DNA of 64,000 bases from the NCBI GenBank assembly GCA_020441905.1, contig JAGRLG010000035.1:1-64000 (forward strand). The letters run 5' to 3'. The notes under the pieces are model-generated. The model saw nothing but the letters and a program-made list of their open reading frames with translations, did no database searches and was not told the origin of the DNA. Positions 39,686 through 64,000 of the stretch are shown here, in pieces (the stretch's first letter is position 1; each line of letters opens with the position of its first letter). This DNA comes from Rhodobiaceae bacterium (GTDB taxonomy: Bacteria; Pseudomonadota; Alphaproteobacteria; Rhizobiales; NORP267). Both the position numbers and the translations under genes were made by a program.

Positions 39686-39686
39686 T

Positions 39687-44049: not shown

Positions 44050-44074
44050 TGCCGCGCACTTCCCTCAAGCTTGC

Positions 44075-45145: not shown

Positions 45146-45161
45146 CCCCTCGGCCAATATC

Positions 45162-45380
45162 TTAAACGGTTTCGCGGCGGGCGGCGGCGCGGGCCTTGCT
45201 GCGGCGCTGTATGACGTAGTAGGCAGCCGCGCCGCCGGCGGCGGCGAGCGCGAGAGCAAGGCCGATCCAGTGCGAATGGGTTTCGCCGGCGGCATCGATA
45301 TGGCCCGGATGGGCATGCGCCATCATCGGGAACGCCGAAAGCCAAACGGCGGAAACGGAAATTTTTGCCAGAGAATTCAT
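45162..45380 (-). CDS. Small exported His-containing membrane protein
   Basis: This 72-residue protein has a signal-like first helix (LAKISVSAVWLSAFPMMAHA) and a short His-rich segment (HAHPGHIDAAGETHSHW). A membrane helix (IGLALALAAAGGAAAYYVI) and a basic tail (QRRSKARAAARRE) follow. The ATG at 45380 has a strong AAAAGGAGG 7 nt upstream. The HPGH start of the mature part recalls nickel/cobalt permeases of the HupE/CbtB kind, but the protein is too short to be one. It sits 16 bp upstream of cbiX, so a cobalt-handling accessory role is likely but inferred. It may belong to DUF6732. Confidence 0.8.
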   Translation of the reverse strand: MNSLAKISVSAVWLSAFPMMAHAHPGHIDAAGETHSHWIGLALALAAAGGAAAYYVIQRRSKARAAARRETV

Positions 45381-45555
45381 CAAGTGCCTCCTTTTGATGG
45401 CCTGTCGCGGACAGAATTCGCAACCCAAGGAGGCAGGCGTCGCCAAAGGATGGCGGCTTGCTTGACTTCCAGCAGCTCCGGGCTTGGCCCCCTGATTGGG
45501 TCGACCGCACCGGAATAGCTTTCAGTTCCTTGGGGTGGAACGCTGCTCGTTCTAT

Positions 45556-45570
45556 CGGGGAAATTCCCCG
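45556..45570. other. Perfect inverted repeat upstream of the cbiX run
   Basis: CGGGGAA (45556-45562) and TTCCCCG (45564-45570) flank one A, within the 249-bp gap between cobO and the small membrane protein gene. It could be an operator or the terminator of the cobO transcript on the minus strand, but there is no T-run. No riboswitch-like core was recognised in this gap. Confidence 0.4.
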
Positions 45571-45629
45571 CTCCTGTCTGTAGCGGATCGGCGCGGCACC
45601 GGCAACCGGCATCGCGGCGATTTCGGCAC

Positions 45630-46259
45630 CTAAAACTCGATGCCGACCTGGGCCTTGACCCCGGCGCGGAAGGGATGCTTGACCTGGGTCATGTCGGTGA
45701 CGAGGTCGGCGGCTTCGATCAGCTCATCCTTGGCATTGCGCCCGGTGACGATGACATGCATGCCCTCGGGCCGGTTCTTCAGCACCTCGACCACCTCGTC
45801 GATATCGAGATAGCCATAGCGCAGCACGATGTTGAGTTCGTCGAGCAGCACCATCTGGTAGTCGGGATCGGCGATCATGGCCCTGGCCTTGTCCCAAGCG
45901 GCCCTGGCGGCGGCGATGTCGCGCTCGCGGTCCTGGGTTTCCCAGGTGAAGCCCTCGCCCATGGCCTGGATGGTGACGAGATCCGGGAATCTGTCGAGGA
46001 CGAAGCGCTCGCCGGTTTCCCAGGCGCCCTTGACGAACTGGACGATGCCGATCCGGAAGCCGTGGCCCAGCGCCCGCATGACGAGGCCGAAAGCGGCCGT
46101 CGACTTGCCCTTGCCCTTGCCGGTATGGACGATCAGCAGTCCCTTCTCGATGGTCTTGGTGGCGAGGATCTTGGCCCGCGCTTCCTTCTTGCGCCGCATC
46201 TTTTCGGCGTGGCGGGCATTGAGTTCCTCTTCGCTCAGGTCGGCATGCTTTTCGTTCAT
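45630..46259 (-). CDS. cobO: Cob(I)yrinic acid a,c-diamide adenosyltransferase CobO
   Basis: CobO (BtuR/CobA type) adds the 5-prime-deoxyadenosyl group to cobalt. The 209-residue protein has the P-loop LLIVHTGKGKGKSTAAFGLV and the substrate-site phrases IGIVQFVKGAWETGERFVLD, MVLLDELNIVLRYGYLD and HVIVTGRNAKDELIEAADLV. The first 40 residues are a charged helix (EEELNARHAEKMRRKKEARA). Its start overlaps the cobN stop by 4 bp (ATGA), so it is the last gene of the riboswitch-led cbtB-cbtA-cobW-cobN-cobO run. Confidence 0.97.
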   Translation of the reverse strand: MNEKHADLSEEELNARHAEKMRRKKEARAKILATKTIEKGLLIVHTGKGKGKSTAAFGLVMRALGHGFRIGIVQFVKGAWETGERFVLDRFPDLVTIQAMGEGFTWETQDRERDIAAARAAWDKARAMIADPDYQMVLLDELNIVLRYGYLDIDEVVEVLKNRPEGMHVIVTGRNAKDELIEAADLVTDMTQVKHPFRAGVKAQVGIEF

Positions 46260-49200
46260 GGCTCCATCTCCTCGCGCGCGCCGGCGGCCAGCGCGCTCAG
46301 TTCATGGTAGGCGGCATTGGATTTCGGGGTCCAGAGATTGCGCGACAGCGCCTCGAGAAAGCGCTGCGATATTTCCCGCAATGCCGCCGGGTTGTTCGCC
46401 TCGAGGAAATCGCGCACTTCCTCCCCGGCGATGAAAGCCTCATAGGCGAGGTCGAAATGATCAGAGCGCACGGCGCCGGTGGTGGCGGCGAAGGCGAACA
46501 TATAGTCGAGCGTCGCCGCGATCTCGAAGGCGCCCTTGTAGCCATGGCGCATGACGCCGGCGATCCATTTGGGATTGACGACGCGCGATCGCATCACCCG
46601 GCCGACCTCTTCCTCCAGGGTTCGCACCACCGGGCGCTCGGGGCGCGAATGGTCATTGTGATAGACCGCCGGCCTTTGCCCTGAAAGGTGCTCGACAGCC
46701 GCGCTCATGCCGCCCTCGAACTGGTAGTAATCGTCGCTGTCGAGCAGGTCGTGCTCGCGGTTGTCCTGGTTGTGGACCACGGCCTCGATCTGCCCCAGGC
46801 GGCGGCGGAAGCCGTCCTCGTCGCGGGCACCGGCGGCGCCCGAGCCATAGGCATAGGCGCCCCAGTTGACATAGGAAGCGGCGAGATCGTCTCGGCTGTC
46901 CCACAGCTTCTCGTCGATCAAAGCCTGGAGGCCGGCGCCATAGGCCCCGGGGCGCGAGCCGAAAACGCGAAAGCCGGCGCGCCGGCGCGCATCCTCCGCG
47001 CTCAAGCCGCCGCGCTCAAGTTCCGCCGCTTCAGAGGCAATGCGCGCGGCAATGGGATTGTCGGCCTCGTCTTCCTCGAGGGCGGCGATGGCGCGAACGG
47101 CGGAATCGAAGAGGTCTATCTGGGCCGGAAAGGCATCGCGGAAAAAACCGGAGACGCGCAAGGTAACGTCGACGCGCGGACGGGCGAGCTTTGCCAGCGG
47201 CAGGATCTCGAAGCCGGTGACGCGCCAGCTTGCGCGGTCCCATTTGGGCGCCGCGCCGATCAGCGCCAGGCCTTGCGCGATATCGTCGCCGCCGGTGCGC
47301 ATGTTTGAGGTGCCCCAGACCGACAGGCCGAGGGATTTCGGGTAGGACCCGTGATCCTGGAAATGGCGCTCGACAAGGCGCTCGGCGGACTTGCGCCCCA
47401 GTGTCCATGCCGCCGGCGTCGGCACGGCGCGGTTATCGACGGAGAAGAAATTGCGCCCGGTGGGGAGCACGTCGAGGCGGCCGCGCGTCGGCGCGCCGGA
47501 GGGTCCCGGCGCCACGAAACGGCCATCCAGACCTTTGAGCACGGCGGCGATTTCATCAGGACCGCACTGGCGCAAGGCGGGGCGGATCTTTTCCTCGATT
47601 TCCGCCAGCACGGCGGCGCTGGCGGCCCAGCCCGGATCGGCGGCGGCCGATCCATCCACCAGCGCGGACGCCAGCGCCTCGAGGCGCTCGACGGTATCGC
47701 CCGCGGTGCGCCACGGACCGTCGGCCAGCGCGACGAGAATTTCCGGCCGCGGCCCCGGCCAGGGTGCGCCCAAGTCGCAGTCTAGGGGATCGAAGCCGTC
47801 GCATCCCAGGTCGGCGGCAAGCGCGCGGATAAGCGAGGCGTCGCCGTTCTCGTCAACCCCGCGCGGAACGCGGGTGAGCGCCACCAGAAGATCGGTCTCG
47901 AGGCGGTCTTGCGGCGCCTCGCCCAGAACATGCAGCCCGTTGCGGATCTGGGATTCCTTCAACTCGCAAATATAAGTATCGAGCCGCTGCAAAGCGGCAT
48001 CCTCGTCGGCCAGGCCGGAAATACCGGCATCCATGTCAAGGCCGGAGGAGCGGGTGAGGTCGAGGATTTCCTTGCGCAGCAGGTCTCGCCGGCGCGGGTC
48101 GAGGCCGGAGGCGAGATAATATTCGTCAATCAGCGCCTCGAGATCCTTCAGCGGGCCGTAGCTCTCGGCGCGGGTCAGCGGCGGGGTGAGGTGATCGACG
48201 ATGACAGCGCTATTGCGCCGCTTGGCCTGGGTGCCTTCGCCCGGATCGTTGACAATGAAGGGGTAGAGGTTGGGCAGCGGGCCGAGCACGGCCTCGGGGA
48301 AACAGTCTTGCGACAGCGCCACCGCCTTGCCCGGCAGCCATTCCAGATTGCCGTGCTTGCCATTGTGGACGACCGCCTGGGCGCCGAACTCATGGCGCAG
48401 CCAGAAGTAGAAGGCGAGGTAGCCATGGGGCGGCACCAGGGCGGGGTCGTGATAGGTTTCCTTCGGGTCGATATTGTAGCCGCGCGCCGGCTGCACCCCG
48501 ACCACCACATTGCCGAAACGGATGACAGCGAGGCGGAAGGCATCATCAGTGACGAAGGGATCGTTTTCCGGCGCGCCCCAGCGGGCGGCGATCTCATCGC
48601 GCACCCTTTGCGGCAAGCCTTCGAAATGGCGGCGATAATCGGCAAGCGGAAGGGTTTCGCCGCCGGCCCGCGCGCCGCCTGGCGCATTGGTCGGCCCGGC
48701 GGAGATGCGCGCCATGAGGGCCTTGGCATCGGCGGGAAGAGCGCCAAGGGCATAGCCGGCGCCGGCCAGCGCGTGCAGGATATTGACCGTGCTCGCCGGC
48801 GTGTCGTAGCCGACGCCATTGCCGATGCGGCCATCGCGATTGGGATAATTGGCGAGCACGATGGCGATGCGCCGCCGCTCCGGCGCGGCCAGCCGCAGCC
48901 TTGCCCATGACGCGGCCAGACCGGCGACAAAGGCGACGCGGTCCGGTTCCGGCGCATAGGTGACGATGCTGCTCTGGGTCGCCTCGTGGCGCACGGCATC
49001 GGCCTTGAAGGAGACGGCGCGGGAGAGAATGCGGCCGTCAAGTTCGGGCAGCACTACATTCATTGCCAGATCGCGCGCCGACAGCCCCTGCGTGCCCTTG
49101 GCCCAGGCCGCGCGGGAGGAGCCGGAAAAAACCGCCTGGAGCACCGGCGCATCGGGAATGCAGAGCGGGTTGTCGGCTGGATTCGTGCTGCCGACGGCAA

Positions 49201-50002
49201 AGCCGGTGGCGTTGAGAATGACTGAAGGCGCAGCCTCATCGAACAGGCGGGCCAGGGTCGCCGCGACCACATCGTCCTTGAGGCTGGTGACATAGAGCGG
49301 CAGGGCGTTGAGGCCCTGCCCGGCCAAGGCGGCGACAAGGGCGTCGACCGGGGCGGTGTTGCCGCCTTCGATCAGGGCCCGGTAGAAGGTCAATGCCGCC
49401 AGCGGGCGGCCCTCGCGCCAATAGGTCCGGATATCCCCGAGCGAGGGGCTGGACAGGCCGGGCCAGTAGATACCGGCCTTGAGCAAGGCCCGCGCCTCGG
49501 GCGGCGCCTCGCCGCGGCCAACAAGGTGGCCGCAGAATTTGAGAAAATTGCGGACGTTTTCCGGCCCCGGTTCGGCGAGATAGCAGCGCAGGATCTCGAC
49601 ATCTTCGCCGGCTAGCGTCGAGCGCGCCTGAAGCGCGGGATCCGCCTCGCCGCCGCCGGGCAGCACGGCGAGCCCGATGCCGTTATCACGGCAGGTATAT
49701 TCCAGCTGTTCGAGGCCATAGGCCCAATAGGCGGCGCCGCCGAGCAGACGCACCACCACCAGTTTCGCGCCCGAGACGGGGCTGCGCATGTAAAGATCGA
49801 CCGACAGATTGTGGCCCAGCGCCATGATATTGGCGAGGCGCAGCGAGGGGGCATCCGCCCCCAGCAAATCCTGCGCGCGGGCCAGGGCGGCAAGCTCGGA
49901 ATCGGCCGCCGAAAGAACGACGATGTCGCCCGCGCTCTGGGCAAGATCGACGGCTTCCGATCCATCGGCAATGACACCGCTCTGGGCGGCCAGGATATGC
50001 AT
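46256..50002 (-). CDS. cobN: Cobaltochelatase large subunit CobN
   Basis: CobN is the big subunit of the ATP-dependent CobNST chelatase, which inserts cobalt into hydrogenobyrinic acid a,c-diamide late in the aerobic route. The 1,248-residue length fits the family (about 1,275). Family phrases include NGVGYDTPASTVNILHALAG, HGKHGNLEWLPGKAVALSQD, FPEAVLGPLPNLYPFIVNDP and, near the C terminus, VVNPKWIAGVMRHGYKGAFE. The AAA+ partners CobS and CobT are not in the window and must be elsewhere if this works as CobNST. Upstream is cobW, 17 bp away. Confidence 0.97.
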   Translation of the reverse strand: MHILAAQSGVIADGSEAVDLAQSAGDIVVLSAADSELAALARAQDLLGADAPSLRLANIMALGHNLSVDLYMRSPVSGAKLVVVRLLGGAAYWAYGLEQLEYTCRDNGIGLAVLPGGGEADPALQARSTLAGEDVEILRCYLAEPGPENVRNFLKFCGHLVGRGEAPPEARALLKAGIYWPGLSSPSLGDIRTYWREGRPLAALTFYRALIEGGNTAPVDALVAALAGQGLNALPLYVTSLKDDVVAATLARLFDEAAPSVILNATGFAVGSTNPADNPLCIPDAPVLQAVFSGSSRAAWAKGTQGLSARDLAMNVVLPELDGRILSRAVSFKADAVRHEATQSSIVTYAPEPDRVAFVAGLAASWARLRLAAPERRRIAIVLANYPNRDGRIGNGVGYDTPASTVNILHALAGAGYALGALPADAKALMARISAGPTNAPGGARAGGETLPLADYRRHFEGLPQRVRDEIAARWGAPENDPFVTDDAFRLAVIRFGNVVVGVQPARGYNIDPKETYHDPALVPPHGYLAFYFWLRHEFGAQAVVHNGKHGNLEWLPGKAVALSQDCFPEAVLGPLPNLYPFIVNDPGEGTQAKRRNSAVIVDHLTPPLTRAESYGPLKDLEALIDEYYLASGLDPRRRDLLRKEILDLTRSSGLDMDAGISGLADEDAALQRLDTYICELKESQIRNGLHVLGEAPQDRLETDLLVALTRVPRGVDENGDASLIRALAADLGCDGFDPLDCDLGAPWPGPRPEILVALADGPWRTAGDTVERLEALASALVDGSAAADPGWAASAAVLAEIEEKIRPALRQCGPDEIAAVLKGLDGRFVAPGPSGAPTRGRLDVLPTGRNFFSVDNRAVPTPAAWTLGRKSAERLVERHFQDHGSYPKSLGLSVWGTSNMRTGGDDIAQGLALIGAAPKWDRASWRVTGFEILPLAKLARPRVDVTLRVSGFFRDAFPAQIDLFDSAVRAIAALEEDEADNPIAARIASEAAELERGGLSAEDARRRAGFRVFGSRPGAYGAGLQALIDEKLWDSRDDLAASYVNWGAYAYGSGAAGARDEDGFRRRLGQIEAVVHNQDNREHDLLDSDDYYQFEGGMSAAVEHLSGQRPAVYHNDHSRPERPVVRTLEEEVGRVMRSRVVNPKWIAGVMRHGYKGAFEIAATLDYMFAFAATTGAVRSDHFDLAYEAFIAGEEVRDFLEANNPAALREISQRFLEALSRNLWTPKSNAAYHELSALAAGAREEMEP

Positions 50003-51996: not shown

Positions 51997-52023
51997 CCGA
52001 TGGCGCCATGGGGCCGGAGGTGA

Positions 52024-52175
52024 CAGGTCTCCTGGCTTACGGGTCATCGATTTCGCGCCGGCCTTCCCGGTTGCCCAGTGGCGGTTGGGCGCGCATCTCG
52101 CCGTTCACAGTTGCGGGGGCAGCCACGGTCTTGGTCCCTGATGGGTACGCCGCACCGTGTTCCCTTTTAAGCCTT
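52024..52175 (-). promoter_or_regulatory. Cobalamin (AdoCbl) riboswitch of the cbtB-cbtA-cobW-cobN-cobO run
   Basis: On the minus strand the conserved elements appear in order: AAAAGGGAA-type start, GGTG, CCCGCAACTGTGA-like core (about 52105-52118), GCCACTG (the B12 box core, 52082-52076), CCGGGAAGGC (52070-52061) and GTAAGCCAGGAGACCTG (52040-52024). This is the standard order for B12 riboswitches. It lies 72 bp before the cbtB start, so expression of cobalt uptake and late chelation genes should fall when adenosylcobalamin is high. Confidence 0.95.
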
Positions 52176-52368
52176 CGAGCCGCTTGGCCCTCCGGCGCCA
52201 CCTAGGGGCCAGTGCTACACTATTGGACAAATCAGTCAATGGATTTGGTCAGAAAATAGCCATAGGCTGGGGGAAGATAGCCGGTGCGGACGGCAGGAAT
52301 GCAGCGGCGCGCAGACAGGCAAGCCCCGGTTCTCACCGCAAATCGGGGGGCGCAAGGCGGGAGAAGGG
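52176..52368. other. Divergent gap holding the promoters of the cbt/cob run and the Lon-like gene
   Basis: No gene is seen here. The stretch around 52215-52260 is A/T-richer and probably carries the minus-strand promoter of the riboswitch transcript (for example TTGACTGA-type bases near 52238). No clear pair could be fixed. The Lon-like gene starts at 52369 after GGCGGGAGAAGGG. Confidence 0.4.
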
Positions 52369-54831
52369 ATGGCCATGACGACGTCGCGCCGCGGAGCGGC
52401 CAAGGGGGACAAGGCGGGAGACAATCCGCTCAGGCTGGCGCCCGGGCAACTGCTGCGGCGCTGCGACCTTTCGAAGCTCGCTTTCAGGACCACGGCGGAG
52501 CTTGCCGACGGCGATCTCATTGCCGGCCAGCAGCGGGCCATCGAGGCGCTGCGCTTTGCCGCCGCGATCGAACGTCCCGGGTTCAACCTGTTCGTTATCG
52601 GCCCCCCTGGCACCGGCAAGCGCAGCCTGGTGCGCGACTATCTCAAGGCGCGCGCCAAGGCGCTGCCGGCGCCGTCCGACTGGGTCTATGTCAATAATTT
52701 CGCCGATGCCTACAAGCCGAAGGCGGTGCAACTGCCGGCGGGCCAGGCGACGGCCTTTCGCGACGCGATGGCCGAACTGATAGAGGATCTTGGCACCATA
52801 TTGCCGGCGGCTTTCGAGAGCGAGAACTACCAGAACCGCCACGGCGCCATCGACGAGCAATTCCGCCACCGCCAGGAAGAGGGCTTCGAAGCGCTGAAGA
52901 GCGAGGCCGAAAAGAACCACATCGCCATCATGCGCACGCCGATGGGGTTTGCCATGGCGCCGGCCACCGAGGACGGCGATGTGATGAAGCCGGACGCCTT
53001 CAACGCCCTGCCGGAGGAGAAGCGCAAGGCAACCGAAGAAGTGATCGGCCAATTGCAGGACCGGCTCGGCACGATTTTGAAATCGATCCCCAAATGGGAC
53101 AAGGAACGCCGCCAGGCGGTGCGCGAACTCAACCGTGAAACCGCCAAGGCCGCGGTCGCCCAGCCGCTCGACGAGTTGAAATCCCGCTTTGCCGGCGTCG
53201 CGCCGATTCAGGAACATCTCCAGGTCGTGCAGAAGGATCTGATCGACAATGCCGGGCTGTTCATCGCCGAGCGGCGCGAGGATGACAGCGGCATTGTCGC
53301 CATTTCCAGCTCCGATACCCGCTTCGACCGCTATCAGGTCAATGTGCTGGTGAGCCACGAGGACGGCGGCGGGGCGCCGGTGATCGAGGAGACCCACCCC
53401 TCGCTGGGCAATCTGGTCGGACGCATCGAGCACATAGCCCAGCAGGGCACGCTGACGACCAATTTCCGCCTCATCAAGGGCGGGGCGCTGCACCGGGCCA
53501 ATGGCGGGTTCCTGCTCGTGGACATCCGCCAGATCCTGCTGGAGCCCTTGTCGTGGATCGCGCTCAAAAGGGCGCTGCGCAATGCCTGCATCACCATCGA
53601 ATCGGTCAGCGACTACCTGGGTGCGATGTCGACGATCTCGCTGGAGCCGGACCCGGTGCCGCTCAAGGTCAAGGTGGCGCTGCTTGCCGACCGCATGACC
53701 TATTACCTGCTCAGCGAATACGACCCCGACATGCGCGAGCTGTTCAAGGTCGTCGCCGACTTCGACGATTCGCAACCCTGGTCGCAGGACGCCGCGCCCG
53801 GTTATGCCCACATGATCGCGGTGCTGGCGCGGCGCGAGAGCCTGCGTCCGCTGACGCGCGACGCGGTGGCACGGGTGATCGAGCAGGCGGGCAAGCAGGT
53901 CGAGGACAGCCAGCGTCTTTCGCTTGTGCTCGAGCCGGTGGCCGATCTCTTGCGCGAGGCCGATTTCCTTGCCGGCGAAGCCGGGCGCAAGGCTATCGGG
54001 GCGGACGACGTCGCCGCCGCGGTCTTGGCGCGAAGGCGCCGCGCCGGGCGCCTGGAGGAGCGCGCGCGCGAGCACATTACGCGCGGCATCGCCCTGGTCG
54101 ATACCGCCGGGGAGGCAGTCGGCCAGGTCAATGGCCTCAGCGTGCTGTCGCTGGCCGGTTTCTCCTTCGGCCGGCCAAGCCGCATCACCGCGCGGGTGCG
54201 CCTTGGCGCCGGCAAGGTGGTGGATATCGAACGCGAGGTCGACCTTGGCGGACCGATCCATTCCAAGGGGGTATTGATCCTGTCCGGCTATCTGGCCGCC
54301 AATTACGCCCCCGACACGCCGATGTCGCTTTCGGCCTCGCTGGTGTTCGAGCAATCCTATGGCGGGGTGGATGGCGACAGCGCCTCGGCGGCGGAGCTTT
54401 TCGCCCTGCTGTCGGCTCTGGCCGAGGTGCCGCTGCGCCAGGATCTTGCCATCACCGGCTCGATAAATCAGATGGGACAGATCCAGGCCATTGGCGGCGT
54501 CAACGAGAAGATCGAGGGGTTTTTCGACCTGTGCGCCGAGCGCGGGCTGACTGCCAGCCAGGGTGTGATCATTCCGGCCGCCAATGTCCAGCACCTGATG
54601 CTGCGCGAGGATGTCGTCGAAGCCTGCGCCGCAGGCAAGTTCTCGGTCTACGCCATCGAAACCGCGGAGCAGGGCATCGAGTTGCTGACCGGGAAGACGG
54701 CGGGGCGGCGCGGGCCCGACGGCGCTTATGAGGCGGGTTCGGTCAATTCGAAGGTCGAGGAACGGCTGGTCGGCTTTGCCATGGCGCGCAAACGTTTTGG
54801 CGCCGGCAAGGATGGCGGGACGGCGCAATGA
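52369..54831 (+). CDS. Lon-like AAA+ ATP-dependent protease (AAA_32/Lon C domain)
   Basis: This 820-residue protein has a Walker A (GPPGTGKR, residues 78-85). A long helical insert with EAEKNHIAIMRTPMGFAMAP (residues 160-300) follows, then an AAA_32-type middle (GALHRANGGFLLVDIRQILL) and a C-terminal Lon peptidase domain. The catalytic dyad is S671 (VDGDSASAAE) and K714 (IGGVNEKIEGF), so the protease should be active. It lacks the N-terminal substrate domain of Lon and resembles the LonB-like/YcbZ group. Substrates are unknown. It is translationally coupled (ATGA) to an unrecognised gene and faces away from the B12 run. Confidence 0.94.
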   Translation: MAMTTSRRGAAKGDKAGDNPLRLAPGQLLRRCDLSKLAFRTTAELADGDLIAGQQRAIEALRFAAAIERPGFNLFVIGPPGTGKRSLVRDYLKARAKALPAPSDWVYVNNFADAYKPKAVQLPAGQATAFRDAMAELIEDLGTILPAAFESENYQNRHGAIDEQFRHRQEEGFEALKSEAEKNHIAIMRTPMGFAMAPATEDGDVMKPDAFNALPEEKRKATEEVIGQLQDRLGTILKSIPKWDKERRQAVRELNRETAKAAVAQPLDELKSRFAGVAPIQEHLQVVQKDLIDNAGLFIAERREDDSGIVAISSSDTRFDRYQVNVLVSHEDGGGAPVIEETHPSLGNLVGRIEHIAQQGTLTTNFRLIKGGALHRANGGFLLVDIRQILLEPLSWIALKRALRNACITIESVSDYLGAMSTISLEPDPVPLKVKVALLADRMTYYLLSEYDPDMRELFKVVADFDDSQPWSQDAAPGYAHMIAVLARRESLRPLTRDAVARVIEQAGKQVEDSQRLSLVLEPVADLLREADFLAGEAGRKAIGADDVAAAVLARRRRAGRLEERAREHITRGIALVDTAGEAVGQVNGLSVLSLAGFSFGRPSRITARVRLGAGKVVDIEREVDLGGPIHSKGVLILSGYLAANYAPDTPMSLSASLVFEQSYGGVDGDSASAAELFALLSALAEVPLRQDLAITGSINQMGQIQAIGGVNEKIEGFFDLCAERGLTASQGVIIPAANVQHLMLREDVVEACAAGKFSVYAIETAEQGIELLTGKTAGRRGPDGAYEAGSVNSKVEERLVGFAMARKRFGAGKDGGTAQ

Positions 54832-55694
54832 ACCCGGCGCGGAAGTCAGGCAAACAGATCAACCGCATGGTCATCGGCCTGTGTGCCGGCGGCGGCGGTG
54901 GCGGCATGGCCGCAGCGGCCCATATTGCGGCGGCGATGGGTCTGGATATCGAAGGTCTGTTCATCGAGGACGAAGACCTGTTCGGCCTTGCCGCCCTGCC
55001 CTTCGTCACCGAATTGCAGTCCGGCACCTTGACCGCCCGGCCCGTCGACCGGACACGGCTGGAGCACGAGATGCGGGCCGCCGCGAGCGCGCTGCAACGG
55101 GCGCTGGCGGCGGCGGCGCAGCCGGCGCGGGCGTCCTGGCGCTTCGCCAGCGTGCGCGGCCATATCGAAAGCGTGGTCGCCACCGCCACCGCGCCGGGCG
55201 ACGTGGTGGCGGTGCTGGAGCCGGCCGGTCCATTCAGCCAGGCCGCCCATGCCGCGGTGAAACTGCGCCGCGCCGCGATGCGCTCGCCAGCCTCGGTGCT
55301 CTATATTCCCGAAGCCGCGCGCTGGCGCCCCGGCGCCGTGGTGGCGGTCCTCGACGGCGGCAGCGAAAGCCATGGCGAGGTGCTGCGCAAGGCGGTGGCG
55401 ATTGCCGCCGCCAGCAGGCAGCAACTGGTGGTGCTGGAGGCGATTTCCGGCAGCGCCGGAAAGGCTGGGCTTTCAAGCCTGCTCGAGGCCTATGCCCTCG
55501 GCCCCGCCCATCTGCTGGTTCGCGGCCTTGAGGCCGACAGCCCCGAAGCGCTCGAACACGCCCTGCATCCGATCGCGCAAAGCCTGATCATCCTGGCGCG
55601 CGGCGCGCTGGGTCTTGACGAGGAAGGCGAACTGATGCGCCTGGCGGCGCGCCATCAGGTGCCGGTTCTGGCGCTTGAGCCGAAGGCGGGCTGA
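54828..55694 (+). CDS. Unrecognised protein coupled to the Lon-like protease (USP-like fold suspected)
   Basis: No family is named with certainty. The 288-residue protein is Ala-rich and soluble. The N-terminal pattern (HIAAAMGLDIEGLFIEDEDL, then FGLAALPFVTELQSG) and the later VVAVLEPAGPFSQAAHAAVK, ASVLYIPEAARWRPGAVVAV and QQLVVLEAISGSAGKAG suggest two alternating alpha/beta lobes. These are like those of universal stress proteins. The ATG overlaps the Lon-like stop by 4 bp, and only 4 bp separate it from the next chelatase-like gene. It is probably an adaptor, sensor or regulator in the same process as the protease, but this is inference from the operon. Confidence 0.8.
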   Translation: MNPARKSGKQINRMVIGLCAGGGGGGMAAAAHIAAAMGLDIEGLFIEDEDLFGLAALPFVTELQSGTLTARPVDRTRLEHEMRAAASALQRALAAAAQPARASWRFASVRGHIESVVATATAPGDVVAVLEPAGPFSQAAHAAVKLRRAAMRSPASVLYIPEAARWRPGAVVAVLDGGSESHGEVLRKAVAIAAASRQQLVVLEAISGSAGKAGLSSLLEAYALGPAHLLVRGLEADSPEALEHALHPIAQSLIILARGALGLDEEGELMRLAARHQVPVLALEPKAG

Positions 55695-55698
55695 CGCG

Positions 55699-56493
55699 AT
55701 GAGCGCTCCCGCCAAGCCGGATCTGCCCCTGGCAGTCCGTCCCACCCGGAGCGGGGCGGGGCTGCTCATCATCGCCCATGGCGAGCGCGGCGGGGCGGCC
55801 GAGAACAGCCTGGTGCACGACCTGGTGACGCGGCTGCGCGCATCGTCCCGCTTTGCCCGCGTCGAGGCCGGTTTCATTCGCTCCGAGCCCCCGCTCGAGG
55901 AGGCGGCAGCGCGCCTTTCCGGCACCAGGATGACGGTCTATCCGCTGTTCATGAGCGATGGCTATTACGTGCGCCGCGCGATCCCCGAACGGCTGGCGGC
56001 ATCCGGGCATGCGGGTACCGGCGCGCCATCCATCCTGCCGCCGCTCGGCCTCGATCCGGGCCTCGTGCCGCTGGGCGAGGAAATAGCGCTGGAAGCGGTT
56101 GCCGCCGCCGGTCTTGAAAGCGCAGGGACCCATCTGCTCGCGGTCGCCCATGGCTCTTCGAAAAGCGGGGAATCGGCGGCCTGCGCGCGCTCCGTGGCGG
56201 CGCAGATCGAGGCGCGCGGGCAGTTTGCGTCCGTATCGGTCGCCTTTCTGGAGGAACACCCCTTCCTCGAGGCGGCATTGAAAACGCAGCCTGGTCCGGC
56301 GGCACTGCTGGGGCTTTTCGCCGGCGACGGGCTGCATGCCGCCGAAGACCTGCCCGGCGCGCTGGCGGCAAGCGGGCGCCGCGACATCGTTCTGGCCGGA
56401 TCGCTGGGAGGCGACCGGCGCCTTGCCGACCTCGTCGCCGCCGCGATAACGGCGCCGGGCGAGCTAATCGAGGAAGACCCGCACCGCGCTTGA
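55699..56493 (+). CDS. CbiX/SirB-like chelatase paralogue (two-domain)
   Basis: This 264-residue protein has two CbiX-type halves. The first begins GAGLLIIAHGERGGAAENSL (residues 24-43) and the second begins THLLAVAHGSSKSGESAACA (around 142-161). Each has the HG signature of class II chelatases. Other phrases are MTVYPLFMSDGYYVRRAIPE and VSVAFLEEHPFLEAALK. It has no Fe-S motif and no His tail, unlike the cbiX at 44.1-45.1 kb. The metal and porphyrinoid are unknown. It is the last gene of the Lon-like operon and overlaps the end of convergent pbpC by 30 bp. Confidence 0.88.
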   Translation: MSAPAKPDLPLAVRPTRSGAGLLIIAHGERGGAAENSLVHDLVTRLRASSRFARVEAGFIRSEPPLEEAAARLSGTRMTVYPLFMSDGYYVRRAIPERLAASGHAGTGAPSILPPLGLDPGLVPLGEEIALEAVAAAGLESAGTHLLAVAHGSSKSGESAACARSVAAQIEARGQFASVSVAFLEEHPFLEAALKTQPGPAALLGLFAGDGLHAAEDLPGALAASGRRDIVLAGSLGGDRRLADLVAAAITAPGELIEEDPHRA

Positions 56494-58557
56494 CCGCCCT
56501 TCGGCGTCGATAACGGTGAGGGTCGAGAATCCGCGCTCGGCGCCAGGCCAGAACAGCTGGCGGCGGTGCGCCGGAAGGTCGAGGGGGTGGCCATTGGCGA
56601 GCCAGCGGAAGGGCAGCGCCCCGCCCTGGACCTTAAGCGCCAGCGCGGCGCCGCGCTCAAGACCAAGATCGACATGGGCGCCATCGGGCGGGAAGGAAAT
56701 CTTCGGCCCGCCGGCCCCGCCATTCGCCGAAAGGGCCGAGGGAGACGCAAAATAGCGCAGCGGCGGCGGCAATTCGCCGGTCGAGCGCAGCGCCGCGCCG
56801 GCGGGCGCGGGGGCGAGGGGCATGCGGCGCAGCGCGATCCTGGTAAAGGCCTCGAACAGGACCGGCGCGGCATGACTGATCCCGGTGAGGCCGGGAACGG
56901 CGGTGCCGTCGGGGCGGCCAACCCAGACGCCGATGGTATAGGCGCCGTCAAAGCCGATGGCCCAGGCGTCGCGATAGCCATAAGAGGTGCCGGTCTTGTA
57001 GGCGATGCCGGCGCCCCGCGCGCCGCGCGGCGGCGCCACCCCGGCAAGGATGCTGGCGACATACCAGCTGGCGGCGGGTTCGAGCAGGCGCACCGGCGCC
57101 GCGCCGTCTGGGCTGGCGCCAATCGCATGCAAGGGCACCATCTCGCCGCCGCCGGCAAAAGCGCCATAGAGCTGGACCAGGTCTTTCAGCGACAGGCCGA
57201 GCCCGCCCAGCGCGATGGCGAGGCCGGGGGCATCGGCGCCAGGCAGGCGCGGCGCTATTCCGGCGCGGCGCAGGCGCGAAATCAGGCGCACCGGACCAAC
57301 TGCATCTAGCAGACGCACAGCAGGCACGTTGAGCGACAATTGCAGCGCCTCGGCGACAGTGACGCTGCCCTGATAGGCCTGATCGAAATTGTGCGGCCGG
57401 TAGCCGGAAAAATCGGCGGGCCGGTCATCGATCATGGTCGCCGGGCGGACCAGCCCGGTTTCGAAGGCAAGTCCGTAGATCAGCGGCTTGAGGGTGGAGC
57501 CGGGCGAGCGCGCGGCATTGGCCATATCGATCTGGCCGCCTGGCCCGCCGTCGAAAAAGCCGGTCGAGCCGACATGGGCGAGGATCTCGCCGCTGCGGTG
57601 ATCGGCGGCCAGGATGGCAACCGAAAGCCCGGAGCGCGAGGCGCCGGCATGGTCCTTTGCCAGTTGCTCGAGCGCGCGCTGAATGCGGAGCGAAATCGTC
57701 AGCCGCACCTCGCCGCGCGCATCAGCCGGCGCCAGCCTTGCGGCAAGGGCAGCGTGGGCGGCGTGGGCTGGAAATTCGCGCCGCCTGGCGGAGAGCGGCT
57801 GCGCGGCGGCGCTCTTTGCCTCGCGCCAGGAGAGCACCCCGGCCCTCGCCATACGGGCCAGCACCTGGTCGCGGGCCGCCCTTGCCGCCTGCGGCGCGCG
57901 GTCGGGGCGGCGCGCCTCCGGAGCCTGGGGCAGGGAGACCAGCAGGGCGGCCTGGGACGGCTCGAGGCGGCGCGGCTCGCGGCCGAAGTAAGCGAGCGAC
58001 GCCGCCCGCACCCCTTCCAGATTGCCGCCATAGGGCGCCAGGGTCAGGTAGAGCGAGAGAATTTCATCCTTGGACAGCCGGCGTTCGATCTGGAGGGCCC
58101 GCGCCATCTGCCGCAGCTTGGCGGAAAGACCGCGGCCATGGCCCGGCTCCAGCAGGCGAGCAAGCTGCATGGTGATGGTGGACGCGCCGGAAACGACGCG
58201 GCCATGGCCGATGAACTGGCCGATGGCGCGCAGCAGGGCCAGCACATCGACGCCGTGATGGGAGAGAAACCGGCGGTCCTCATAGGCGATGAGCATGGCG
58301 AGAAAGCGCGGATCGACCTCGCTCGCCTGGGTCCGCAGGCGCCAGCGGCCATCGGCAATGGCGAAGGGGCGCAGCAGGGCGCCGTCGCGGTCGGTCACCG
58401 CCCTGGAGGTTTCGACCGCACCAAGCGGCGGGGGAAAGCCGCGGTCGAGCAGGAGCAGCGCGGGAAAAACGAGCGCGGCGAAAAACCCGAGGAGCGCGGC
58501 AGCGGCAAGCAGGCGCCGCCGCTTCAGTGCAGCCCTCGCGCGTCGCTCAAGGTTCAA
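56464..58557 (-). CDS. pbpC: Penicillin-binding protein 1C PbpC
   Basis: This class A penicillin-binding protein makes and crosslinks glycan strands. The 697-residue protein has an N-terminal membrane anchor (LLAAAALLGFFAALVFPALL). The GT51 glycosyltransferase has catalytic E93 (LIAYEDRRFLSHHG) and VVSGASTITMQLARLLEP. The transpeptidase has S354-T-L-K357 (SPGSTLKPL), SLN in LSLNVPAVRLLD and KTG in IAYKTGTSYGYRDAWA. The C-terminal BiPBP_C domain begins around residue 610. Its start overlaps the macroglobulin gene by 11 bp, the usual coupling of this pair. Confidence 0.96.
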   Translation of the reverse strand: MNLERRARAALKRRRLLAAAALLGFFAALVFPALLLLDRGFPPPLGAVETSRAVTDRDGALLRPFAIADGRWRLRTQASEVDPRFLAMLIAYEDRRFLSHHGVDVLALLRAIGQFIGHGRVVSGASTITMQLARLLEPGHGRGLSAKLRQMARALQIERRLSKDEILSLYLTLAPYGGNLEGVRAASLAYFGREPRRLEPSQAALLVSLPQAPEARRPDRAPQAARAARDQVLARMARAGVLSWREAKSAAAQPLSARRREFPAHAAHAALAARLAPADARGEVRLTISLRIQRALEQLAKDHAGASRSGLSVAILAADHRSGEILAHVGSTGFFDGGPGGQIDMANAARSPGSTLKPLIYGLAFETGLVRPATMIDDRPADFSGYRPHNFDQAYQGSVTVAEALQLSLNVPAVRLLDAVGPVRLISRLRRAGIAPRLPGADAPGLAIALGGLGLSLKDLVQLYGAFAGGGEMVPLHAIGASPDGAAPVRLLEPAASWYVASILAGVAPPRGARGAGIAYKTGTSYGYRDAWAIGFDGAYTIGVWVGRPDGTAVPGLTGISHAAPVLFEAFTRIALRRMPLAPAPAGAALRSTGELPPPLRYFASPSALSANGGAGGPKISFPPDGAHVDLGLERGAALALKVQGGALPFRWLANGHPLDLPAHRRQLFWPGAERGFSTLTVIDAEGRSSAVRVFLD

Positions 58558-61500
58558 TGCCGATCACCTCGCTCCGGCCGCTTGCGGTGCGCGCATTGAG
58601 ATGCGGCCGGTACATATCCTCGACCAGCGCCGGCGGCAGGGCGAAACGGCCCGGCGTCACCGCGCGCACCATATAGGCCAGGGTGAAGCCGCGCGCCTCG
58701 TTGCCGCTGCGTTCGAGCGCGGCGACGAAACGGTCGTCGCGGAATTCGAGCCGCGCCGCCTCTACCTTTTCCGGCAGCCAGGACAGGGCGGCCAGATCGG
58801 CGCTGTCAACGAGCGCCGGATTGGCGATTTCGAACCCGGCGGGCAGCATGTCAACGACCAGAAGGTGCGAGGGCAACTCGCCGGCCTCGGTTACCTCCAG
58901 GGTAACCACCAGGCGCTGGTTCTGGTTGACCAGCGCCGGGTCGGCCGGGGCGCCGTCCAGGGTGTAATAGCTGCGGCGGATCTCGAAGCCCTCGCCGCCG
59001 GACGGAGCGGCCTTTTCCGGCACTCCGCTCACCGTCAGTACCAGTTCGAGCGGCTGCCCGCCCTCATTGACCAGTTCGGCGGCGCCCTGTTCGAGCCGGG
59101 CAGCGGAAAAGCGGCGCAGCAGATTGCCGCTCACCGCCTCACCGTCGATGCTGACTTTCGCCGTCGCGGCGCTGCCCAGCAGGCCGTTGGCGGCCATCAG
59201 CAGCCAGGCATTCTCCTGGGTGCTGGTATAGCGCCTGGCATCGCGCTGTTCGGCAACGAAATCGACCAGCCGGGAAAGGGGGGCCAGCGGCGGGCTGGCC
59301 TCGGCGGCAAGTGTGAGCATGGCAGCGCCGTCGCGCAGGGGCGAGCCATAGTCGCGGCGGGTATCGGGGTTGCCATCCTCGCCGGCGAGGCCGGAAAGGC
59401 CGGCGGCGAATGTGGCGCTGGCACGCCCGCGCTCGCCGTAAAGGGCCAGCGCGGCGGCGAGCTGGGCGCGGGCCAGGGGCGAGGAAAATGCGTCCAGCTT
59501 GCTGTCGGCATAGTAGCGCAAGTCGCCGATGGCGGCGCGCCGGTTGCGGGCCAGGACATAGAGCGCATAGGCGGTGTCGGCGCCGCCATTGGCGGCAACG
59601 TCGGTGTAGGCCAGCGAATTGGCGAGATTGTCGAGGGCCTGGGCGAGAGCGCGTTCGGGCACGGCGAAACCGAGCGCGGCGGCGCGGGAGAGGAAGTCGG
59701 AAACATAGGAATCGAGCCACAGATCGCCCTCGCCCGGCCCCCATAACCCGAAGCTGCCATTTGACGCCTGATAGGACATCAGGGCGCCAATGGCCTGCTG
59801 CACCCGGTCCCTGATCGCGGCGTCGTCGCCAAGCCCGGCGGCGGCGGCAACGGCGGAGAGATAAAGCAGCGGCAGGGCGCGGCTGGTGGTCTGCTCGGCG
59901 CAGCCATAGGGGTAGCGGTCGAGCGCCTGGAGCAGCGAGGGCAGGTCGAGGCGGGCAGCCGGCGAGATCGACAGCGTAACGGCGCCGCTGCCGGCGGAAT
60001 AACCCGCCAGCAAGCCGGAATCGATGCTGAACTTTTCGCCTGGCGCCAGGGTCACCAGCCGCCTTTCGCTCACCGGCGGCCGGGACGGGCGGACACTCAT
60101 CGTCAGGTCGCGCCCGATCCTTGTGCCGTCCGGGCCACTCAACGCGATGGCGATATGGCCGGCGCCGAGCGAAGCGGCGGCGACCGGAATATCAAGGCTC
60201 ATGCGCTGCCCCGCGGCCAGGGTCAGGTCGCGCCCCTCGCCGCCGACCGCAAGGGCGCCGTCGCCCGTGGTTTCGAGATGATAGGCGCCCGCCTGGCCAT
60301 CGGTGTTGGCGATGTCAAGGCGCAGCCTGGCGCTGTCGCCGGCGGCAAGAAAACGCGGCAGCGAGGCGGTGAGCACGACGGGATCGCGCACGGTGACATC
60401 GGCAACGCCGTGGCCGACGCGGTCCCTGCTCCAGGCGACCGCCATCAGGCGCAAGGTGCCGTTGAACTGCGGCACAGCGAAACTGACCGTGGCGCCGCCC
60501 TTCTCGTCAACGGTGACGACGCCGGAAAACAGTGCCACCGGATCGCCTTCGGGCGGGCTGGCGGCGAGCGCCACGGGCGCGAAATCGCCGCCGGAGCGGA
60601 TCCGGCCGGCGGTGGCCGCACCTTCGACCAGACGGCCGAAAAGATCCCGGATCTCGACGCCAAGGCGGCGCTGGCCGAAATACCAGCCCGCCGGATCGGG
60701 TGGCTCATAGGCGGTGACATTGAGGATACCGACATCGACGGCGGCGACGACGACGCGGGCCTCCTCGCCCGGCGCCAGCCCGGCAATGCGCAGCGGCAGA
60801 TCGAGGCTCTGCGCCGGGCGCGCGATTTCCGGCGCCTCGAAGCTGACGGCGAGGCGCCGGGCGCCTGGATCGACTCCGGCCCAGGCCAGGCCGATGGCTC
60901 GCGCCGGCTGGTGGCCGGTGGCGGCTGAGCCGCGCATCAGGGTCACCGAGACATAGGCGCCGGCGCCCCAGTCGCCGCTGACTGTCAGATCGACATCGAC
61001 GCGGCCCGCCGTCACCGCGATCTCGCGGGTTTCGATCAGTCTTTCGCCCATGACCGCAATCAGGGCCTGGCCGTTGCCGGCGGCTTCGAAGGACAGGCGC
61101 GCGGTATCGCCCGGTGCGTAAGCCTCCTTGTCGAGGCCGATCTGGAGATTGTCCGGCGTTTCTGCCGAAGCGTCGGCGACATGCCAGCCGGCGGCAAAGG
61201 AATAGCTCGACGACACGCCGCCGGCGCCGGAAACGACGAGGCGGTAGTCGCCCCATTCAACTCCGGCGGAAAGGGTGGCGGACGCGTCGGCGGCTATGTC
61301 GAGCGTGCCGTCGCCAACGCGGCTGGTGGCCTCGACCGGCTCGTAGGACCAGGAGCCGTTGACGCGGTACCACTGATAGGATCGGTTGACCTTGAGCAAC
61401 TGCCAGCGCAAGCCGGACAGGGCGATGCGGCGGCCCTGGCCATCGACCGCGATCAGTTCAAAACCGGCGGTTTGCTTTTCGCCGATATGGCCATCGGCGA

Positions 61501-64000
61501 AGAGTGGACGGATGCCGACAAAGGGTCCGCCGCCGGAAACCGGCAGGGTGAGCACGCGCTCGACGGCACGCCCGCCGCTTTCCTGCATGCGCAAGGCGAG
61601 TGCGGCTTCCAGCGGCCCGGCGCTGTCCGGCAATTCGCCAGCGCTGAGGGCGAAGCTGGCCTCGCCCCTGGCATCGGTTGCCGGCAAATCATAAAGCGGG
61701 CTGCGCTGCGGCGGCGCCTCCTCCTCGGCAAGGCCGAAGTGGAAGCCGGGAAACGCGCCAATGTTCTTCGTCGGCCTGATTGTGACCTCGCCGGCAAGCT
61801 TGAGCCCGGCGGCCGGAGCGCCGTAGAGAAAGCGTCCCTCGACGGAGGCGGTGACGGCGCCGTCGCGGGGCAGGCTTTCGGCGTCGGCGGCGAGATCGAA
61901 CTCGATGCGGTCGGGAATGAAGTCCTCGACCATGAAGCGGGTTTCGGCCAGCGCCGGCTTGCCGGTGTCGGCATGAGCCGCCAGCTGCCAGGTGCCGCGC
62001 ATGGCATTGGCGGGCAATTGCAGCGCCAGATGGTGACCGCCAAGGCCGGAATCGGAAACGACGACGCGGCGGTATTCGACCCCGTCGGGGCGGCGGACGA
62101 TGAGGCTCAGCGGCACATCGCCCACCGCTTGGACGCTGGCGTCGCGCAGCAGGGTCAGGGCATGAACGGTTTCGCCGGGGCGGTAGATGCCGCGCTCGGT
62201 ATAGAGAAAGGCATCGATCGGCGCCGGAGCGGGACGGCCGGCGACGCCGCGGTCGGACAGATCGAATGCCGGGCCGGTGAGGTCGAGAAAGGCATAGTCG
62301 CCGTCGGCGCCCATGGCGGTGACGAGCGCCGGGGCGGCGCCACCTTGGCCACGGGCAAGGCCGGGCGCGAACAGCGCATGGCCGGCGCCATCGCTGACCG
62401 CCTCGCCGAGCACCTCATTGTTGCGCGCCACCAGCGCCAGGCGGGCGCCCGGAACAGGCCTGGCGCTGGTCAGCGAGCGCACGAAGGCATGGATACCGTC
62501 GCTGCCGGCAAGGCTGGTCAGGGCAAGATCGGAAACGATAAACCACTGGGTGGCGCGTGCCTCCCAGGCATCCAGGCGCGCGCCCCCGGGGCGGGCAATC
62601 ATGACATAGACGCCGGGAGCGGGATCCTTGACCACATCATCGACGGGAAAGCCGGTGGTCACTTCCTCGTTGAGCCGGGTTTCGACGGCAAGGCTGCCGC
62701 GCCACAGGCGGCGGCCGAGCTGCTGCTCAAGCTTCTCGGCGGAAAATCCGTCTAGCTGGCTGAGAAAATCGCCGGCGGCAACCGATTGCGCGAGCGCGCG
62801 GTCGGCAATGCGGTAGAGGTCGATCTCGATGCTTTCGGCATTGACCGAAACCAGGGGAATGGCATGGGCGCCGCTGCGCGGCAGGATGTAGTTGGAGCCG
62901 GTGAAGCGCACCGCGGAGGAGCGATCGCGGACATAGACATTGAGCAGCAGCGGCGCGGTCAGCGCTTCGCCGATGCGCGAGGGAAGGCCGGCGCGCAGGC
63001 CGACGCGGTAGCGCGCGCCATGGGAAACACCTTCGATGCAGAGCTGCTGTTCCTCGGCCTCGAGCGCGGGCGCCGGCTTTTCATCGAGGGTGACGAAGGA
63101 CGCGTAATCGGAATTTCGGCCGGCCAGCGGCTCGGAAAACTGGACGCAGATGCGGGGGCTGGCGGCGTCGGCATCGACCGAATAGTCGGTGACACGGAAG
63201 CCGCGCTCGGCGCGCAGGCGCTCATAGGCCGCGCGCACCAGCGCCGAGTCGGCCGCCGCCAGGCTGGCCTTGTAGGCTTCCAGCGCCGGACGGAACAGCT
63301 GCTGGCGCTCAAGCGCTGCGGCCAGCAGAGCCAGCGGCTCGGCGCGCTGCGGCGGCTGCGCCGCGGCCGAATATCCGTTGAGCGCCGCCAGCGCGGCATC
63401 GGCGAGCAACTGCGACTGTTCCTGGTAGTTGGCGGCCTGGGTGGCCAGCAGGGCGCGGGCCAGCGCGCTCCAGGCCGGCGCCTCGCCGCCGCCGGCAAGA
63501 ATGGCGCGGTAGCGCTCGGCGGCAAGGCGGGCATCGCCGGCGCGTACGGCACCGGCTGCCTCGGCCTCGAGGCGGCGGCGCGAAGCCGGGGAAGGCGCCC
63601 CGGCGGCGCGCAGCATGAGGGCGAAGCGGCGGGCTTCCGGCTCCAAATTGCCGGGCAGGAAGGTGAGGCGCGGCGGCGGCGGCGCCTTGACCGGCCGGTC
63701 CGCCGCGGCGCGCACGATGCTCCCGGCAATGGCGCCCGGCTCGGCCTTGAGCTGGCCATAGTCGGATTTGAGAAAACACCATTTGGCGCTGGAATTATAG
63801 GTGAAGGCGCCGCAGGCGCTGTCGGCGAGACAAGCCTGCTTGCAGGTGTCCAGGCTGACATCCTTCAGCGTCCGCAAGTCGTAGCCGAAGTAATCGGCAT
63901 CCTTGGTCAGGACAATGCGGGCGCCGCCCGGGTCGACGGCCGGATCCTGCGCCTGCGCCGGCGCCGCCAGCGCCAGGAAACACAGGGCGATCAAGTGCGG
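58547..64000 (-). CDS. Alpha-2-macroglobulin-like protein with PAN domain (5-prime end cut by window edge)
   Basis: This is a very large periplasmic protease-trap protein, at least 1,815 residues. The frame runs past the right edge, with a hydrophobic signal (LIALCFLALAAPAQAQ) at the very end, so only a few N-terminal residues seem missing. An apple/PAN-like Cys domain (TLKDVSLDTCKQACLADSAC) comes first, then MG domains. The bait and thioester region has YPYGCAEQTTSRALPLLY, with the Cys-Gln thioester pair intact around residue 1,363. It is coupled to pbpC (11-bp overlap). The pair is thought to guard peptidoglycan synthesis against foreign proteases. Confidence 0.93.
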   Translation of the reverse strand, partial: PHLIALCFLALAAPAQAQDPAVDPGGARIVLTKDADYFGYDLRTLKDVSLDTCKQACLADSACGAFTYNSSAKWCFLKSDYGQLKAEPGAIAGSIVRAAADRPVKAPPPPRLTFLPGNLEPEARRFALMLRAAGAPSPASRRRLEAEAAGAVRAGDARLAAERYRAILAGGGEAPAWSALARALLATQAANYQEQSQLLADAALAALNGYSAAAQPPQRAEPLALLAAALERQQLFRPALEAYKASLAAADSALVRAAYERLRAERGFRVTDYSVDADAASPRICVQFSEPLAGRNSDYASFVTLDEKPAPALEAEEQQLCIEGVSHGARYRVGLRAGLPSRIGEALTAPLLLNVYVRDRSSAVRFTGSNYILPRSGAHAIPLVSVNAESIEIDLYRIADRALAQSVAAGDFLSQLDGFSAEKLEQQLGRRLWRGSLAVETRLNEEVTTGFPVDDVVKDPAPGVYVMIARPGGARLDAWEARATQWFIVSDLALTSLAGSDGIHAFVRSLTSARPVPGARLALVARNNEVLGEAVSDGAGHALFAPGLARGQGGAAPALVTAMGADGDYAFLDLTGPAFDLSDRGVAGRPAPAPIDAFLYTERGIYRPGETVHALTLLRDASVQAVGDVPLSLIVRRPDGVEYRRVVVSDSGLGGHHLALQLPANAMRGTWQLAAHADTGKPALAETRFMVEDFIPDRIEFDLAADAESLPRDGAVTASVEGRFLYGAPAAGLKLAGEVTIRPTKNIGAFPGFHFGLAEEEAPPQRSPLYDLPATDARGEASFALSAGELPDSAGPLEAALALRMQESGGRAVERVLTLPVSGGGPFVGIRPLFADGHIGEKQTAGFELIAVDGQGRRIALSGLRWQLLKVNRSYQWYRVNGSWSYEPVEATSRVGDGTLDIAADASATLSAGVEWGDYRLVVSGAGGVSSSYSFAAGWHVADASAETPDNLQIGLDKEAYAPGDTARLSFEAAGNGQALIAVMGERLIETREIAVTAGRVDVDLTVSGDWGAGAYVSVTLMRGSAATGHQPARAIGLAWAGVDPGARRLAVSFEAPEIARPAQSLDLPLRIAGLAPGEEARVVVAAVDVGILNVTAYEPPDPAGWYFGQRRLGVEIRDLFGRLVEGAATAGRIRSGGDFAPVALAASPPEGDPVALFSGVVTVDEKGGATVSFAVPQFNGTLRLMAVAWSRDRVGHGVADVTVRDPVVLTASLPRFLAAGDSARLRLDIANTDGQAGAYHLETTGDGALAVGGEGRDLTLAAGQRMSLDIPVAAASLGAGHIAIALSGPDGTRIGRDLTMSVRPSRPPVSERRLVTLAPGEKFSIDSGLLAGYSAGSGAVTLSISPAARLDLPSLLQALDRYPYGCAEQTTSRALPLLYLSAVAAAAGLGDDAAIRDRVQQAIGALMSYQASNGSFGLWGPGEGDLWLDSYVSDFLSRAAALGFAVPERALAQALDNLANSLAYTDVAANGGADTAYALYVLARNRRAAIGDLRYYADSKLDAFSSPLARAQLAAALALYGERGRASATFAAGLSGLAGEDGNPDTRRDYGSPLRDGAAMLTLAAEASPPLAPLSRLVDFVAEQRDARRYTSTQENAWLLMAANGLLGSAATAKVSIDGEAVSGNLLRRFSAARLEQGAAELVNEGGQPLELVLTVSGVPEKAAPSGGEGFEIRRSYYTLDGAPADPALVNQNQRLVVTLEVTEAGELPSHLLVVDMLPAGFEIANPALVDSADLAALSWLPEKVEAARLEFRDDRFVAALERSGNEARGFTLAYMVRAVTPGRFALPPALVEDMYRPHLNARTASGRSEVIGIEP

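Follow-up and report, generated by a model that had tools for sequence, protein, structure and literature searches.

A protease gene and the gene that overlaps its end form a conserved pair in a stretch of DNA from a Rhodobiaceae bacterium (assembly GCA_020441905.1, contig JAGRLG010000035.1, positions 1 to 64,000, the whole of these 64,000 nucleotides being called the window here). The first gene appears to encode a LonC-like protease that has an active-looking Ser-Lys dyad and degenerate ATPase motifs, and its product looks unable to use ATP as fuel. The second gene, as judged from its structure model, encodes a diverged tandem universal stress protein (USP). A third gene, cbiX3, follows closely and had been joined to the other two in a first-pass annotation that read all three as one operon; the conserved unit is genes 1 and 2, usually with an NTGA overlap, and conservation does not extend to all three as a unit. 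The best explanation of the pair, in which about even confidence can be placed, is a two-gene module where an ATP-independent pseudo-AAA LonC has its own tandem USP, the partner being an adaptor or a gate. The parts of this that are supported by sequence are the genes, the dyad, the degenerate ATPase motifs, the prediction of a tandem-USP fold and the conserved adjacency and overlap.

LonC proteases and USPs are both known already; what appears to be new is their pairing, of which no account was found in the literature searched, most subscription papers being outside its scope. A pair that is kept with translational overlap across phyla, and that is missing from the sister Lon clade, bears on the molecular function of USPs as well as on the control of LonC, and it may reflect a form of protease control that is new. 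If the USP is indeed a dedicated adaptor or gate, this would be a new kind of regulated proteolysis and would provide one branch of the USP family with a concrete molecular job. The analysis also corrects the three-gene operon reading, and it identifies a probable siroheme ferrochelatase for a lineage in which no CysG was detected.

Conservation of the LonC-USP pair

Among the nearer relatives the middle protein lies beside lonC in 9/9 other genomes having a match. Across 385 genomes of the class there are 142 AAA_32 occurrences, spread over 136 genomes, and 75 matches to the profile of the middle protein in 65 genomes. Of the 55 matches at E<=1e-10 (window included) 54 stand immediately after a Lon gene with AAA_32, some 1.1 kb beyond that domain on its downstream side; the 55th (G243:C8) stops at a contig end. 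At E<=1e-3 the same position is occupied by 62 of the 75 matches. In the phylum (398 genomes) a match at E<=1e-3 is present in 19 genomes, and all 12 genomes with a match at E<=1e-10, which include the window genome (G000) and G029, have it beside lonC. Alignment A1 holds the order-level relatives, where the profile matches by construction, which is not the case for the class and phylum counts except for the rows that are in A1; the USP profile was seeded with two loci, the USP identity of which was checked later with Pfam.

The 105 Lon loci taken from the class comprise 71 with the partner, 31 without it, two in which the Lon gene runs off the contig and one without a lonC (L171). A start within a 4-bp NTGA overlap is possible in 47 of the 71 loci with a partner, and 7 others allow a 1-bp overlap. 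An ATGA contains the lonC stop in 34/71 loci that have the partner versus 0/31 of those that do not. No fused LonC-USP open reading frames (ORFs) were found in the 105 loci scanned, and RNA structure across the ATGA junction gave no signal (z -0.24). The coupling proposed in the first-pass annotation thus holds for genes 1 and 2, as their link recurs throughout the class and across phyla and is therefore more than chance; the link to gene 3 is shared by a single further genome of the family.

The link is confined to one part of the Lon tree. In a tree of 153 proteins (6 rows shorter than 600 amino acids (aa) having been dropped), split by midpoint rooting, the window's clade has 101 members, with a USP next door in 69, none in 30 and 2 indeterminate, whereas its sister clade of 52 AAA_32 Lon proteins from the same class has a downstream USP in none, with 48 lacking one and 4 indeterminate. 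Clustering of the USP-neighbour label on the tree exceeds all 500 shuffles. The sister clade has a catalytic dyad identical to that of the window's clade, but its Walker A is mostly GR in place of GK and the Asp of its Walker B is mostly Arg.

The pair is also found well outside of the class. In 80 named LonC loci from several phyla a USP-type gene is directly downstream in 44, not in 33, and 3 are indeterminate. Those with a USP include Nitrosovibrio, Neoroseomonas, Leisingera and Marinobacter, together with, by title, Anaerolineae, Thermoflexales, Trueperaceae, Chlorobiaceae, Rhodopirellula, Salinivenus and Latescibacterota, where the labels of metagenome-assembled genomes (MAGs) are possibly wrong; Chloroflexota is among the groups having the pair. 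In the class to which the Trueperaceae genome belongs a USP is beside 8/9 LonC-proper loci. A suggestion for Thermus, that a TTC1975-type LonC would stand beside the tandem USP TTHA0350, was rejected, as a USP is found in 0/11 loci of this type in the stretch examined.

Additional USP-family genes are seen at several loci. In a Trueperaceae MAG (L311, 6584-10206) three more genes come after lonC and the tandem USP, for a single USP, a baeRF-family protein and a further USP, a series which by its look is a stress operon. A second USP-family gene stands just past the LonC-USP pair in L121, L125, L145 and L146, and in L179, L190, L300 and L301 a USP-family gene directly follows lonC. One genome (G839) carries both a USP-paired LonC and an MtaLonC-type gene that has no USP (G839:C21 and G839:C4; L391 and L402).

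The LonC-like protease

The Pfam domains of gene 1 are AAA_32 (1.2e-48), LonB_AAA-LID, LonC_helical and Lon_C, with no LonA-type N-terminal domain in the same scan, and the closest solved structures are chains of LonC from Meiothermus taiwanensis (MtaLonC; PDB 4fwd and others) at 1.3e-96 and 1.4e-96. Alignment to MtaLonC gives Ser671 and Lys714 as the catalytic pair, which bears out the earlier view of an active-looking Lon-type protease with S671 as the catalytic residue. Within the window's clade the Ser and Lys columns are each kept in 99/101 proteins. The ATPase motifs are far less well preserved, with the Walker A Lys in 55/101, a Ser or Thr after it in 18/101 and a Glu after the Walker B Asp in 0/101; the window protein has the Walker A sequence GPPGTGKRS, in which the Lys is kept and Arg stands where Ser/Thr would follow. 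The LonC insertion has the consensus CX3GLX(G/E) in PMC3391209, and is CAERGLTA in the window protein, with A as its last residue where G is found in 95/101 of the clade.

MtaLonC shares with gene 1 a pseudo-AAA domain and a Lon protease domain, a Ser-Lys dyad and degenerate Walker motifs, and is described in PMC3391209 as being without ATPase activity, degrading only unfolded proteins and being induced by heat. It differs in lying on the other side of the tree, where MtaLonC-type rows group with the sister clade and apart from that of the window (again with midpoint rooting), in having no USP neighbour at loci of its type and in that the window protein has kept the Walker A Lys. The tree used to place MtaLonC was built on samples, with 22 USP-set proteins, 12 from the no-USP set, 14 from the sister set and 14 from the 80 named loci, and the MtaLonC type was verified on one of the 11 loci (L403, 1307 bits to the crystallised protein).

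The tandem universal stress protein

The protein encoded by gene 2 has no match to any Pfam or NCBIfam family, the Pfam Usp model (PF00582) included, its relatives do. The Usp model matches 4/14 of the relatives in alignment A1 (best 3.2e-8) and 21/33 LonC-adjacent proteins (30 from named or Deinococcota loci and 3 from the class), the latter being a check that is independent of the profile built in this analysis, and profile-profile comparison of alignments A1 and A4 gives 1.6e-36. The structure model (predicted local distance difference test, pLDDT, 86.3; predicted template modelling score, pTM, 0.86) is matched over its whole length by tandem USPs in Foldseek, the best being UspE (4r2j, 6.8e-10), with TTHA0350 (3ab8) at 1.7e-9, and its comparison to Rv2623 (3cis) gives a VIA Z of 20.4 and a root-mean-square deviation of 3.5 over 247. 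The tandem fold of these three proteins spans the entire gene 2 protein, in keeping with the USP-like character that it had been given from the first. It differs from them in sharing 8-19% identity, in having neither a Pfam Usp match nor the ATP motif, and in that its gene overlaps lonC.

A feature of the N-terminal domain may be linked to the pairing. A search with the loose loop pattern F(I/V)ED...LPF finds it in 24/47 LonC-adjacent USPs compared with 1/14 other USP ORFs from the same loci. This FIED...LPF loop is a candidate for a site of contact with LonC.

Possible mechanism and its rivals

The overlap of the two genes would allow LonC and the USP to be produced together. LonC may form a hexamer like that of Lon and degrade unfolded or damaged protein with no ATP hydrolysis, and the USP-like protein could bind this hexamer as an adaptor or gate that selects or admits substrates under stress. 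The first-pass annotation had cast the middle protein as a sensor or adaptor for the protease, and of this an adaptor or sensor role is plausible but the tetrapyrrole context is not supported. An extended form of the proposal, in which USPs act in several phyla as an adaptor or gate dedicated to a Lon-type protease that needs no fuel, with substrate choice via the FIED...LPF loop replacing ATP-driven unfolding, can be put forward tentatively.

A number of observations weigh against the two-gene module. USPs of the ATP-binding subclass carry the motif G2xG9xG(S/T). This consensus is not in the gene 2 protein, and a regular expression for it found 8/71 of the relatives, several of these apparently by accident; as the motif is missing from the window USP and mostly from its relatives, a nucleotide-sensing role is not supported. 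The Walker A Lys that is kept in the window LonC means that nucleotide may still be bound, and the biochemistry of MtaLonC, whose type has a USP neighbour in 0/11 loci from the same class as the Trueperaceae genome, would carry over by homology only. An adjacent USP is lacking from 30/101 Lon genes of the window's clade, one of which (L141) is labelled as having none but does have a USP partner, and from the 33/80 named loci given above; LonC often stands without an adjacent USP, thus the protease can function without an adjacent partner. Nor was a third conserved neighbour of the pair found that would name a pathway. Of 89 non-alpha or Deinococcota loci 57 were considered, and in the USP-positive set that was scanned with Pfam (30 named, non-alpha loci, 109 neighbouring proteins) the most that was found is Usp in 5, response regulators in 5, CBS in 3 and Crp-like in 3. 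An RpoH-like heat-shock motif is not enriched upstream, being found in 1/57 regions with 1.8 expected.

The main rival to the two-gene module is that LonC and the USP are co-expressed and act in parallel under stress, one as a protease and the other as a separate chaperone or survival factor, without contact, the overlap setting their ratio. Adjacency by itself is no proof of contact, a USP is not beside about a third of the members of the window's clade, and extra USP-family genes in L121, L125, L145, L146, L130 and L311 are what would be seen in a stress island. Parallel action sits less well with a link confined to one Lon clade (0/52 in the sister clade), with nearly all strong relatives of the window USP adjoining a lonC, and with the FIED...LPF loop being so much more common in USPs beside LonC (24/47) than in other USP ORFs (1/14). 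It is a possible explanation, held as a minority one.

The USP-like protein might instead be a substrate or an inhibitor of LonC, restraining the protease until stress releases or destroys it. Co-translation would let an inhibitor be made in step with the protease, and an ATP-independent protease would presumably need some brake, yet the named LonC loci without a USP suggest that the protease is not toxic alone and there is no sign of degradation or inhibition in these sequence data, making this role rather unlikely. The two-gene module with an adaptor or gate is the preferred explanation.

The downstream CbiX gene

Gene 3 matches the Pfam CbiX family (5e-20) and its best solved match is the CbiX of Paracoccus pantotrophus (4CCS, 2.7e-24), with His151 and His213 aligning to His127 and His187 of that protein. 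In PMC4063343 CbiX is reported to be a siroheme ferrochelatase in alpha-proteobacteria, namely Paracoccus, where both of these His residues are essential for siroheme synthesis. The genome context is similar, in that siroheme appears to be required and CysG was not found. G000 has NirB and a two-domain sulfite/nitrite reductase, and siroheme reductase genes are present in both G000 and G002, the only two of six family genomes to have cbiX3. CysG was not found in these two, their best PF13241 matches being 7.1e-5 and 3.7e-4 and that of G000 being TrkA, with the absence uncertain as the window genome is 94.46% complete. G003, G004 and G005 have PF13241 matches of 2.1e-22 or better, which in G004 is CysG, and no cbiX3, and in G001 there is a match to neither CbiX nor NIR_SIR. 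Given the match to 4CCS, the two conserved His and the siroheme reductases without CysG, gene 3 is most simply, and probably, the siroheme ferrochelatase of the window's lineage, a separate gene whose predicted product would serve the sulfite and nitrite reductases. A gap in this argument is that G000 has no candidate for a precorrin-2 dehydrogenase; the same gap is reported for Paracoccus in PMC4063343.

The gene could alternatively be a cobaltochelatase of the neighbouring B12 locus. It belongs to the CbiX family and adjoins a locus with CbiD and a CbiG-CobJ fusion, which are genes of the early-cobalt route. That locus already has its own CbiX (44075-45316) and CobN, the best match of cbiX3 is 4CCS with both essential His kept, and in the five family genomes with a siroheme-type reductase domain cbiX3 is found in the two without CysG and not in the three with strong PF13241, all of which make a cobaltochelatase unlikely.

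The window gene differs from its Paracoccus counterpart in lying downstream of a LonC-USP pair. The first-pass annotation had taken the mix of genes as a possible quality control of metal insertion, in which mis-metalated tetrapyrrole enzymes would be brought to the protease by the middle protein. Both the window and G002 do have the chelatase after the pair and cbtA on the other side. In the 105 class loci, however, cbiX3 and cbtA are each near lonC in one, the cbtA query matching L031 only, and a CbiX relative is found in 0/80 of the named LonC loci, counting ORFs on the same strand. Queries with cobW, cobN, cobO, cobH and CbiX-413 matched 0/105 class lonC loci. The cbtA-like stretch of L031, which is the G002 locus (G002:C15), is divergent and separated from lonC by about 5 kb that include other genes. 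The three-gene order is thus not conserved, and neither is the supposed link to cob genes, which is seen again in just a single further family genome. The check named in the first-pass annotation, on whether the order fails to be conserved or the two other genes occur free of the protease, goes against the three-gene system, with the middle gene tied to the protease and not to the chelatase. As the order is not conserved and an ordinary role suffices for the chelatase, quality control of metal insertion is not supported and appears very improbable. cbiX3 is instead a lineage-specific passenger after the LonC-USP pair, found only in the window and in one family member.

Layout of the locus

The ORFs of the three genes lie where they had been placed, overlapping by ATGA and then 4 bp apart, and face away from the B12 locus (Table 1). 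The ATG of gene 3 at 55699 is 4 bases past the stop of gene 2, and its listed ORF begins upstream at TTG 55675.

Table 1. Positions in the window of the three genes, their key residues and the upstream boundary
Feature	Position	Strand	Remarks
Cobalamin riboswitch of the divergent B12 locus	52005..52217	-	Boundary, outside the unit
LonC-like protease gene (gene 1)	52369..54831	+	820 aa; Pfam scan and alignment to MtaLonC
Catalytic Ser671 codon	54379-54381	+	In the LonC-like gene
Catalytic Lys714 codon	54508-54510	+	In the LonC-like gene
ATGA in which the lonC stop and the USP-like gene start overlap	54828..54831	+	Recurrent in relatives
Diverged tandem universal-stress-type protein gene (gene 2), from the structure model	54828..55694	+	288 aa
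FIED...LPF loop of the USP-like protein, residues 45-63	54960..55016	+	Recurrent in LonC-adjacent USPs
Paracoccus-type CbiX gene (gene 3, cbiX3), predicted siroheme ferrochelatase	55699..56493	+	264 aa
His151 codon of cbiX3	56149-56151	+	
His213 codon of cbiX3	56335-56337	+	

The cobalamin locus is divergent from the three genes, with cbtA (51763, minus strand) its first gene behind the cobalamin riboswitch (52217-52005). Further along, at 37061-50002, it contains genes of the early-cobalt route (CbiD, the CbiG-CobJ fusion and a CbiX with a His-rich tail) as well as the late chelatase CobN. On the other side, convergent with the operon on the minus strand at 56464-63994, are a PbpC-like penicillin-binding protein and a bacterial alpha-2-macroglobulin with a PAN domain, as identified with Pfam.

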